Positions 457-21,590 of a DNA stretch of 64,000 nt are shown here, piece by piece. The DNA is from an uncultured Lachnospiraceae bacterium (GTDB lineage: Bacteria > Bacillota > Clostridia > Lachnospirales > Lachnospiraceae). Both the position numbers and the translations under genes were made by a program. Location: the NCBI GenBank assembly GCA_947172705.1, contig CAMWCA010000007.1:1-64000 (forward strand). Direction: 5' to 3'. Numbering within the stretch: position 1 is the first letter of the stretch; the number at the start of each line of letters is the position of its first letter. A model generated the notes under the pieces. It saw only the letters and a list, made by a program, of their open reading frames with translations. It was not told where the DNA came from and ran no database searches.

Positions 457-1327
457 GAGATTTAATTTACGAAAAGCGGGCATATGGCTGCAAAAAGGAT
501 TTGCGACGGCGGCGCTTCTGCTTCCGGCAGCGCTGATCCTTTTACCCCTGCTGATCTTACTGTCAGGGGCGCTGATGGACAGTTGGGAACTGGAAGGATA
601 TTTGAGAGACGTTTTTACAGAAGGAGAGAAATTTATCAGTTGGCGGTGGATGCCTGCTTATCCTTCTTTTGAAAATTATAAAAAGCTGTTGTTTGAAACG
701 CCTCAGTTTTTTGTGCTGTTCTGGAATTCCGTGAAACTGACGGGATGTATTCTTGCAGGACAGCTCCTGACGGCGGTACCGTCGGCGTGGGGCTTTGCCG
801 TGTATCCGGTAAAGGGAAGCAGATGGCTGTTTTCCCTGTATGTGGTATTGATGTTGATGCCTTTTCAGGTGACGATGCTTTCAAGCTATCTGGTGTTAAA
901 TCAATTGTCACTTTTGAATACCCACGGAGCTATTATTTTACCGGCAGTTTTTTCCACCTTTCCGGTGTTTGTGGTGTACGGGGGATTTCGAAGTATTCCG
1001 CCCCAGATGCTGGATGCGGCGAGAATGGACGGAGCCGGAGAGATGACGATATTGATCAGGCTGGGGCTTCCTCTTGGAAAGGGAGGTCTGCTCTCTGCAA
1101 TGGTGCTGGGATTCCTGGAATATTGGAATCTGATGGAGCAGCCCATGGCATTTTTGGAGGAAAAGGCTTTGTGGCCGCTGTCCCTGTATCTGCCGGAAAT
1201 TACCTGGGGGCAGGCGGGTTTTGCTTTCTGCGCCAGCGTGGTCACCCTGGTTCCGGCGGTATTTGTATTTGTGCTGGGGCAGGACTATCTGGAACAGGGC
1301 ATCATTTATGCAGGTCTTAAAGAGTGA
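446..1327 (+). CDS. Carbohydrate ABC transporter permease (MalG-like)
   Basis: 293 aa, hydrophobic, EAA-loop-like DAARMDGAGEMTILIRLGLPLGK; overlaps the upstream permease. Confidence 0.9.
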   Translation: MKAKRFNLRKAGIWLQKGFATAALLLPAALILLPLLILLSGALMDSWELEGYLRDVFTEGEKFISWRWMPAYPSFENYKKLLFETPQFFVLFWNSVKLTGCILAGQLLTAVPSAWGFAVYPVKGSRWLFSLYVVLMLMPFQVTMLSSYLVLNQLSLLNTHGAIILPAVFSTFPVFVVYGGFRSIPPQMLDAARMDGAGEMTILIRLGLPLGKGGLLSAMVLGFLEYWNLMEQPMAFLEEKALWPLSLYLPEITWGQAGFAFCASVVTLVPAVFVFVLGQDYLEQGIIYAGLKE

Positions 1328-1343
1328 AAGGAAAGGCTTTAAA

Positions 1344-2660
1344 ATGGATATAAGGTTAAAAAAGGCGGCAGTGGGATTTGTGGGTTTTCTTATCTTTATG
1401 GTAGCATGTACGTTAATTTCCAAAAGCGTATATGCCTACCGCCTGCCCATGGTCAGTACCTGCCAGCCGGAATCCAAATATATAGAACATAAAGTGGAGG
1501 CGGAGGGAATCGTGATCCCGGGAGGGGAAAAGATCGTTACCTATCAGCCGGGGGTCAGGATCGCTTTGATGCTGGTTCACGTAGGCGACCGGGTGGAGGA
1601 AGGAGCAGAACTGTTTCAAATTGATCTGGAGGATTTAAAGGAGATCATGGAGGAAAAGAAAAACGAAATTTCTCAACTTTCCCTCCAGATCAACGCGATT
1701 TTGGAGAATCAGGAGCTTGCCCGGCAGAAAAAGGAGTTGGAGCTTGCACGCGCCCGGGAAGACTACGATATTACGGCAAGGCTTCAGGACACCCAGGTGG
1801 GAAGGGCAATGGAAAGCTATGTCCAGGCGGAAGAGGATCTGGAAGAAGAGGGAGGTCAGGACGCATTGCAGGACGCGCTGCAAAGCGCGGCATACGGGGA
1901 AGCGGATGCCAGGGCGGAACGGGACGAGGCGGTAAAGCAGGCGGAAAGAAAAGTGGAGGATCTTCTTTTGCCGGAGGAAATCTCCGCAGAGCTGGATCGG
2001 CTGAATCTGGAAAAATCCCAGCATTCCGCCAGGCTACAGGAATATCAGAAGATTCTTGAGGAACAGGGGATGGTGACGGCGCCTTTTGGAGGGGTGGTTA
2101 CGGAGATCCTCACAGGAGCAGGGGAGAGGGTTCCGGACACGGCGGTATTGCTCTTATCGGACGATACCCTTCCCTGCCAGCTTAAAGTGCTGCTGGATCA
2201 GGAGCAGAAAAAGTACATTGGTCTGGGGGATCAGGTTTCCATTAAAATGGAAGGAAAAAGCAGGGAACTGGAGAAGGAGATCGCTTACCTTGCAGAGAGC
2301 AGAAGCGTCCCGGAAAAATATGAGGCATTGATTGATCTTCCGGAAAAGACAGGGACGCCGGGGGAGGCGGGAACCATTTCCAAATCCCAGAAGGGTGAAA
2401 AATATAAATTCTGCCTTCCTATGGAAGCAATTCACACAGAGAACGACAGAAGCTATGTGTATGTATTGAAGGAACGGGAAGGAATTCTGGGGGAGGAATA
2501 TTACATAGACGAGATGAATGTAAAGGTGATAGATAAAAACGACCACTGGGCGGCTGTGGAGGAAGGGAGGCTGGAGAAGGAAAGCCGGATCATACTTTCC
2601 TCTACCGGAGAAATGAAAAGAGGGGATACGGTTCGGTGGGAAGGGGAAAATTTATCATAA
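1344..2660 (+). CDS. HlyD/efflux adaptor-like membrane fusion protein
   Basis: N-terminal TM helix, lipoyl-like halves (IVIPGGEKIVTYQPGVRIALMLVHVGDRVEEGAELFQID ... GMVTAPFGGVVTEILTGAGERV) flanking a coiled coil. Confidence 0.75.
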   Translation: MDIRLKKAAVGFVGFLIFMVACTLISKSVYAYRLPMVSTCQPESKYIEHKVEAEGIVIPGGEKIVTYQPGVRIALMLVHVGDRVEEGAELFQIDLEDLKEIMEEKKNEISQLSLQINAILENQELARQKKELELARAREDYDITARLQDTQVGRAMESYVQAEEDLEEEGGQDALQDALQSAAYGEADARAERDEAVKQAERKVEDLLLPEEISAELDRLNLEKSQHSARLQEYQKILEEQGMVTAPFGGVVTEILTGAGERVPDTAVLLLSDDTLPCQLKVLLDQEQKKYIGLGDQVSIKMEGKSRELEKEIAYLAESRSVPEKYEALIDLPEKTGTPGEAGTISKSQKGEKYKFCLPMEAIHTENDRSYVYVLKEREGILGEEYYIDEMNVKVIDKNDHWAAVEEGRLEKESRIILSSTGEMKRGDTVRWEGENLS

Positions 2661-2666
2661 CAGTCC

Positions 2667-2977
2667 AGCCCTGCCGCAAGGAGCAGAAGCCTATCAGCAG
2701 CCTGGCTTTGCACCTGGGGGACATACATCCTTTCCAGACTTGTCTACGAATTGGATTTCACTAACAGAATGCGGGAAAATTTTCAAGCCGGTCGGGTCAG
2801 AGCCAGCGGCATCCGTGCCGCGAGGCTCTTAAAACCGCCGTCCTGGCGGTTTTGCCCTCGTTATAGGAGCATTCTGTAAGTGAAATTGCCAATTCTCCGC
2901 CAAAGCCTGGAAAGGATGTATGTCCCCCAGGTGCAAAGTCAGGCTGCTGATAGGCTTCTGCTCCTTGCGGCAGGGCT
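2667..2977. repeat. Giant hairpin 1: 71-nt arms (2667-2737 / 2907-2977, 70/71 complementary) enclosing structured core 2749-2894
   Basis: Direct reading: left arm agccctgccgcaaggagcagaagcctatcagcagcctggctttgcacctgggggacatacatcctttccag is the reverse complement of the right arm except at one position. Confidence 0.95.
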
Positions 2978-3016
2978 TAACTACAATGGTTTATCTATTT
3001 GAAAAAGCCGAGAACA

Positions 3017-3045
3017 TTGAAAATAGATAATAGATACAGTATAAT
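3017..3045 (+). promoter_or_regulatory. Sigma-A type promoter TTGAAA-N17-TATAAT
   Basis: Near-consensus -35 (3017-3022) and -10 (3040-3045) with 17-bp spacer, just upstream of the ORF at 3093. Confidence 0.7.
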
Positions 3046-3092
3046 ACAAAAGAATAAAGCAATGATAAGATGCTGGCAGGAGGGCTTTCTCT

Positions 3093-3725
3093 GTGCAGGA
3101 GATTTGTAATCTGGTTTTCTTCCGATCTATATTTTTAACTGTTTTATATTCGTTCATCGCCATCACAGTGATAAACTGTCTGTTGGCGGGGCTTTTGCAC
3201 CCCTATTTCGTAAAGGGAGGCTATCCTCCCCGTTTCCTGATCCTGCGTCCCAATCGAATCGACTTTCAGCAGAGCATGGAATGCTCCGCCTATGCCTGCG
3301 CCTTCGTGCTGCGGCATTATGGAAGAGAGGCATCGGGTCAGGCGCTGTACCGGGAAATGCCCTGCAAACGCAGAAATGGAACCGTGTATCCCAAGGGCAT
3401 AAAAAAGCTTTTGACCCGTCAGGGGCTGAATGCCGTGTACTGCACCGGGAATCTGAATGCCTTGAAAAGGGAAATCAGCAGCGGGAACCCGCCTATTGTC
3501 TTTATCCGGACCCGTCCCGGCAAAAACTGGCTGCATTTTGTCCCTGTAGTGGGTTATGACGAAACGCACCTTTTTCTGGCGGACTCTCTGACCGATTTGG
3601 CAAACTGTAGCGAAAATGGCTACAACAGGAAGGTAAGCAACAAGGATTTTTTAAAGCTCTGGAACACCTCCATGCTGAAAATGCCGCTGTACAGGAATAC
3701 CTTTTTTCGGATATCGGAGGTATAG
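3093..3725 (+). CDS. C39-like cysteine peptidase-fold protein with N-terminal membrane segment
   Basis: QQSMECSAYACAFVLRHYG (Cys), NWLHFVPVVGYD (His) and FLADS resemble C39/papain-like family motifs; start codon uncertain. Confidence 0.65.
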   Translation: MQEICNLVFFRSIFLTVLYSFIAITVINCLLAGLLHPYFVKGGYPPRFLILRPNRIDFQQSMECSAYACAFVLRHYGREASGQALYREMPCKRRNGTVYPKGIKKLLTRQGLNAVYCTGNLNALKREISSGNPPIVFIRTRPGKNWLHFVPVVGYDETHLFLADSLTDLANCSENGYNRKVSNKDFLKLWNTSMLKMPLYRNTFFRISEV

Positions 3726-21140: not shown

Positions 21141-21240
21141 ATCTTTATAACTAAAGATATGAAATTCCCCCTTAATTTATATTCTTAAATTTTAAAAAGC
21201 TTTCATTACCACTAACATGAGAATATCTGGAAACAGCGAG

Positions 21241-21555
21241 AGTGTGGGCAGGGGATTACAGGGAAGGAGGGAGGAGGGGTGGGCAAAGGGATGGCAAAGG
21301 GCAATGGGGTTCCAGGGCTTTAGCGAGAAATTGGCAATTTCACTTACGGAATGGAGAAATCCCAGGGTGATTCCGCCATGGAGGGTGGAATCAGGAGCCA
21401 CGCGGCACGGATGCCGCCGGCTCCGACCCGTCCAGTTATCGACACCCTTTCCCATTCCGTTAGTGAAATCCAATTTCGAGATCAGCCCTGGAACCCCATT
21501 GCCCTTTGCCACCCCTTTGCCCACCCCTCCTTCCCTGTAATCCCCTGCCCACACT
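21241..21555. repeat. Giant hairpin 2: arms 21241-21319 / 21484-21555 (one mismatch, one 7-nt indel) enclosing core 21329-21475, homologous to hairpin 1 core in inverse orientation
   Basis: agtgtgggcaggggattacagggaagg... vs reverse complement of ...ccttccctgtaatcccctgcccacact; core shares aattggatttcactaac(a/g)gaatg and gcggcatccgtgccgcg with hairpin 1. Confidence 0.95.
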
Positions 21556-21590
21556 CCCACCCCCTCCCAACTAAATTTTCCCCACCCCTC

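Follow-up and report, generated by a model that had tools for sequence, protein, structure and literature searches.

Copies of TwoAYGGAY (RF01731), an orphan RNA family, are in one genus of gut Lachnospiraceae probably short, dispersed, non-autonomous palindromic insertion elements of a MITE-like kind, with a conserved TwoAYGGAY core and arms homogenised by template switching. Two such copies lie in the window, that is, the whole stretch of 64,000 nucleotides analysed here from the genome of an uncultured Lachnospiraceae bacterium (contig CAMWCA010000007.1). In this explanation, the core would form a three-way junction with two GGA-loop hairpins, centred in a long, near-perfect palindrome. Copies with GTAACAGTTCAGCC ends would be moved, or have been moved, by an ISBst12-group (IS66 family) transposase supplied in trans, while polymerase template switching would write one arm onto the other, giving mirrored substitutions and indels and an occasional inversion of the core. 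An additional, strand-specific constraint would hold the core, with an RNA-binding protein, the transposase or another DNA-binding protein as its candidate agent. What is new is the multi-copy genome setting together with the inverted-repeat arms outside the Rfam model.

The family itself was described in 2010 as one of unknown function, and its discoverers graded it as probably an RNA and probably not cis-regulatory (Weinberg et al., 2010; PMC2864571). Later studies give covariation support for RF01731, including gains with R-scape (PMC11701678; PMC7657543), and put it forward as a CsrA-binding RNA on the basis of a match to the CsrA site (PMC4333381); in the literature passages on the family, no description of it as a mobile element was found. 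Both window cores match the full RF01731 model (positions 1-168) by cmscan above its gathering score of 43 bits, copy 1 at 2741-2902 on the minus strand (74.6 bits, E = 9.6e-11) and copy 2 at 21320-21484 on the plus strand (80.6 bits, E = 4e-12). Given these scores and the 73% identity between the two cores, chance is excluded as the source of their likeness. The original prediction, made from the window alone, held that compensatory base changes between the two copies reveal selection on folding. Its observation is real, and its core claim, the structure and covariation of what is RF01731, is already known.

The A-T to G-C swap on which it rested can be read directly: aacAgaatg (2763-2771) pairs with cattcTgt (2870-2877) in copy 1, and aacGgaatg with cattcCgt in the reverse complement of copy 2. 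Among 101 copies of the subfamily, this same column pair (27/139) reads AT in 67 and GC in 32, and on the Rfam strand a conserved T.T mismatch adjoins the outer-stem strand at 2763-2771. The second hairpin (2831-2853, minus strand) does match between copies, with aaaaccgcc/ggcggtttt (2831-2839/2845-2853) in copy 1 and gattccacc/ggcggaatc in copy 2, but the copy 2 stem has one position that is not Watson-Crick, an A.C as originally read and a G.U on the Rfam strand. The hairpin said to be invariant, gcggcaTCCGtgccgc (2806-2821, minus strand), indeed has the same sequence in both copies. Its supposed TCCG tetraloop is the complement of an AYGGAY loop (ACGGAT on the Rfam strand), as the reading had been made on the strand complementary to that of the Rfam model. 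Each copy has one degenerate loop, the pairs being AGGAC and ACGGAT in copy 1, where AGGAC closes the hairpin at 2831-2853, and ATGGAG and ACGGAT in copy 2. The limits given for the copy 1 core (2749-2894) are too narrow, since pairing extends to about 2657-2987 in copy 1 and to about 21240-21556 in copy 2.

With these arms included, copy 1 is an element of 331 bp on the minus strand with probable ends at 2657 and 2987, in which the left arm (2657-2740) pairs with the right arm (2903-2987). The arms are at least 95% identical, and about 99% identical across the 71 columns outside the Rfam boundary. Its ends, ATAACAGTCCAGCC and (as reverse complement) ATTGTAGTTAAGCC, are similar to the terminus GTAACAGTTCAGCC of the family, and AATTTATC (2649-2656) and GGTTTATC (2988-2995) are tentative left and right target-site duplications that agree at 6/8 positions. 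Its length equals that of another copy, L290 (331 bp), which has a 7/8 target duplication, and in BLAST searches with 2600-3050 the other copies in the genome align to query positions 59-375/383. For copy 2 the inverted repeat spans 21240-21556 (plus strand), with arms at 21240-21319 and 21485-21556 that are 90% identical with one 7-bp gap; the left arm is unrelated in sequence to the arms of copy 1. Across the genus, inverted-repeat arms beyond the Rfam model were found in 142 of 148 full copies (score of at least 20; shuffled maximum 12.5), with a median length of 84 bp and a median identity of 95.7%, and their sequence varies from copy to copy. Arms occur in other genera as well: those in G216 are 100-154 bp long and mostly 90-97% identical, those in G178 are short, and those in G302 and its relatives are long, pair imperfectly and have an outer palindrome that differs from copy to copy.

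Copy number is high and uneven. The window's genome has at least 36 RF01731 matches over the Rfam cut-off, compared with none in 14 controls, and this count is a lower bound because BLAST with copy 1 also finds contig ends. Within the genus the number per genome ranges from 0 to at least 36, with many species having none and six species having 29 to at least 38, while across the order copies were detected in 20 of 295 genomes, belonging to 12 of 130 genera, mostly with more than one per genome. The copies are intergenic, and every orientation relative to genes is represented. Searches of plasmid and phage collections with copy 1 gave no match at blastn sensitivity. In G302, a near-complete genome from a different genus, contig 1 has six copies among the matches listed (L434-L439), all on the plus strand, which have an imperfect inner stem in common and copy-specific outer palindromes.

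Insertion polymorphism is seen directly in the closest relative, G034, whose neighbouring genes are 87-90% identical and which has neither window copy. The site of copy 2 is empty there, the intergenic region being intact and about 340-360 bp shorter; similarity stops on the left at about 21210 and restarts on the right at about 21551, and the two sides are contiguous in L480 with an overlap of 7-8 bp. At the site of copy 1 the two genomes differ in the 3' end of the upstream gene. Some copies combine GTAACAGTTCAGCC ends with 8-bp target duplications, which are perfect (8/8) in L233 and 7/8 in L290, L006, L141, L205 and L066; those of the coreless derivatives L240 and L253 are 8/8. Just 17 of 151 copies have GTAACAGTTCAG ends that can be recognised at either side, and five of these 17 have a duplication of at least 7/8, compared with none of the shuffled pairings. 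The remaining copies end otherwise, for example in GTTACATTTCAC or CAATGTYATTAAG; window copy 2, like most copies, has other or decayed ends, and copy 1 has diverged ends. Given that most copies have different or decayed ends, one mobilising transposase is not demonstrable for all of them. In L221 and L067 the second end type, CAATGTYATTAAG, surrounds TwoAYGGAY cores with possible duplications of 7-10 bp, and this end type perhaps represents a different mobilising enzyme.

The GTAACAGTTCAGCC end is present in 28 of 37 genomes of the genus and absent from the control. It also delimits short elements without a core (L288, 172 bp; L312, 140 bp; G030:C14, 171 bp, in several copies; and elements of about 144 bp in G029, G001 and G027), two of which have 8/8 target duplications. 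Since MITEs such as L288 and L312 have the same ends without a core, the core is unnecessary for that kind of transposition. As to the source of the ends, an intact single-ORF IS66-family element of the genus, L272, has ends GTAACTATTCAGCC, an 8/8 duplication and a 485-aa transposase, and ISDge4 of the ISBst12 group has ends GTAACTGCTCAGCA and an 8-bp repeat (PMC12898284). Multi-gene IS66 loci of the canonical kind (L256-L269) were considered as a source and rejected, as they do not share the GTAACAGTTCAGCC end. IS66-family transposases were found in G023, G018 and other genomes of the genus; none was detected in the window's own genome (G000), and for this reason the copies are not assigned to IS66; some of them simply have IS66-type ends. 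The subset with GTAAC..TTCAGC ends and 8-bp target duplications resembles the ISBst12 group of IS66 (PMC12898284; PMC11946415), but the copies are about 0.3 kb long and have no internal transposase, compared with 1.8 kb for that group, and most have no recognisable ends. The likeness to bacterial MITEs is closer in form: the copies are short (about 307-342 bp where ends are well defined), non-coding and non-autonomous, with terminal inverted repeats and many dispersed copies, and with target duplications in a subset and insertion polymorphism. Unlike in those MITEs, the arms here are long, nearly perfect and copy-specific, and a structured core is kept across genera.

The arms change in concert, in situ. 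When left and right arms were compared four ways in 26 disjoint pairs of related copies, there were 397 paired columns, 121 single changes and 12 arm-specific shared changes. At 13 pairs of orthologous sites, chosen by alignable flanking DNA on one or both sides (for some, on one side only), 140 substitutions were paired vs 52 single, and the paired ones comprised 74 transitions and 66 transversions (47%). Gap columns at these sites were mirrored in 136 cases and unmirrored in 5. For example, L145 and L190 have three paired changes in common, including one T-A transversion, and L185 and L193 have in common a 24-bp deletion present in both arms, the core being inverted between the two. A second inversion of the core relative to orthologous flanks, again with matching arms, is seen in L117/L206. 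An apparent third, in L032/L079, was dropped, as L079 is one of a pair whose other member matches L032 in the same orientation. At a single intergenic site, different core subfamilies or inverted cores were also seen between species (L117 vs L206; L062/L159 vs L121).

Arm homogenisation with inversion of the spacer is the published hallmark of a polymerase switching templates between inverted repeats (PMC8604942), and compensatory changes in hairpin stems have been shown to be explicable by the same process (PMC8794818). The core inversions with matching arms in L185/L193 and L117/L206 are as predicted by template switching (PMC8604942). The copies share arm homogenisation, mirrored multi-base changes and spacer inversion with the quasipalindrome correction of those studies, which concern mainly short repeats and RNA stems, whereas the arms here are 50-150 bp long and present in dozens of copies. 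As template switching would yield mirrored changes, most paired changes would need no selection for folding.

The types of mismatch bear on the same question. Where RNA pairing is selected, imperfect pairs read on the functional strand should be G.U more often than A.C. In the arms the ratio of G.U to A.C was 173:190 (12,255 columns, p = 0.40), and in arms of other genera 133:147. In the core hairpins it was 24:21 (193 unique hairpins), with G.U making up 1.4% of pairs; an excess of about 20:3 in the inner domain, obtained by column count, had suggested a strand bias and was gone on this recount by hairpin. By comparison, 10 tRNAs from the same loci gave 15:0, with G.U at 6.4% of pairs, and the difference from tRNAs was significant for both hairpins (Fisher p = 5e-4) and arms (p = 2e-5). 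Mirrored indels, transversion pairs and equal G.U and A.C fit DNA template switching between arms and not RNA compensation. Most paired changes look mutational and not selective, at least in the arms, where they would be mostly a by-product of DNA copying. Of the original argument from covariation to selected folding, the premise stands, in that pairing is conserved and covariation is extensive over many copies; the inference fails for most of the paired region, where arms change in concert and G.U equals A.C. R-scape, the check then proposed, would not tell RNA selection from template-switch copying.

A stronger version of this reading, which we hold tentatively and as somewhat less than an even chance, is that RF01731 is not a functional RNA at all: it would be the inner part of a DNA palindrome multiplying in the manner of an insertion element, with covariation arising from template-switch copying. 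If so, covariation statistics would need a control for copying, such as G.U vs A.C and mirrored indels, before they could prove RNA structure. Covariation counts as the strongest evidence that an RNA is structured, and here, in more than 100 copies, most paired changes arise at fixed positions, include mirrored indels, and show no sign of the wobble intermediates expected of RNA evolution. The comparison of G.U with A.C and the search for mirrored indels offer an easy test for other orphan families as well. This family, for its part, gains a genomic identity, as the probable centre of a self-correcting palindromic insertion element in this genus.

The core is a different matter. It keeps a T.T mismatch in TTA/TTA, an asymmetric two-base bulge, the junction nucleotides AGGG and GACCCG, and the GGA loops, two GGA hairpins being detectable in 145 of 225 cores and one in 76. 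Because these features are retained though arm copying would erase them, they indicate a sequence-specific and strand-specific constraint on the core, and some selection beyond palindromy appears to be implied. A functional structured RNA could supply it: the element would be transcribed, the folding of core and arms kept by compensatory mutation, and the repeats would serve the host, for instance as a CsrA sponge or a 3' UTR stabiliser. That the GGA loops of both hairpins are conserved strand-specifically in 12 genera would be expected of such an RNA, as would the published CsrA-site match noted above, and csrA is present in 33 of 37 genomes of the genus. It is present in most of them regardless of copy number, however, including genomes where copies are absent, and was not found in the copy-rich G004 and G034 (assemblies 86-89% complete). 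Also in favour of an RNA, copies often lie just 3' of stop codons: of 60 close genes located 3' of the core, 43 have their stop codon toward the element, the core being antisense to the gene. Against such an RNA stand the mirrored arm indels, a G.U share of only 0.7-1.4% of core pairs and its equality with A.C in the hairpins, beside the tRNA values above, the mixed orientation of neighbouring genes, and the lack of both window copies in the nearest relative, and we consider it unlikely.

Mixed gene orientation also bears on the annotation of the family. Rfam gives RF01731 as a cis-regulatory RNA, whereas here it is multi-copy, randomly oriented and intergenic, with long copy-specific palindromic arms absent from the model. 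To judge from the gene maps, this mixed orientation would argue against cis-regulation by RF01731 copies and places the cis-regulatory label in doubt; a cis-regulatory leader was considered and set aside on this ground.

Orientation is not without regularities. Genus-wide, 17 of 18 pairs of neighbouring copies within 600 bp of each other are divergent (left minus, right plus) and none is convergent. The divergent arrangement is seen for instance at L003, L123, L119, L078 and L116, and also in window copies 1 and 2, which are 18 kb apart. Palindromic ends should leave orientation indifferent, and divergent neighbours are not predicted by the insertion-element explanation; together with the stop-codon-facing genes, they point to some function or insertion rule. 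Copy orientation showed no relation to replication strand as judged by GC skew (65/147). REP and BIME sequences are dispersed intergenic palindromes found near stop codons, often as inverted pairs, although TwoAYGGAY elements are much longer and have a three-way junction core. A host-maintained DNA element of this style, in which pairing at the DNA level is itself selected through cruciform extrusion or binding of an architectural or restart protein, would be consistent with mismatches without strand bias, with intergenic positions near gene ends and non-random divergent pairing, and with some sites being common to several species. It is distinctly improbable, in view of arms that are free to change and differ wholly among copies, of genomes of the same genus with zero copies, and of the insertion polymorphism.

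A last alternative, in which the core is itself mobile and inserts into the centres of pre-existing palindromes of several MITE kinds, would account for cores whose arms are unrelated and whose ends differ, for the copy-specific outer palindromes of G302 and for same-end MITEs without a core, but is very doubtful, as the arms of related copies are homologous together with the core and the coreless same-arm relatives resemble central deletions, not empty targets. These relatives (L240, G000:C28:5076-5117, 42 bp; L253, G000:C77:9728-9800, 73 bp; L238, G000:C3:4308-4499, 192 bp) keep their ends and 8-bp duplications, suggesting from their sequences that the centre of the palindrome was lost after insertion.

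Apart from the question of mobility, copy 1 contributes to a coding sequence. The stop codon TAA (2658-2660) of the HlyD-like gene at 1221-2660 comes from the end of the element, and the C-terminus of the protein differs in the closest relative. The flanks of copy 1 (1221-3725) encode HlyD-like and C39-peptidase-like proteins, which suggests a peptide export locus.
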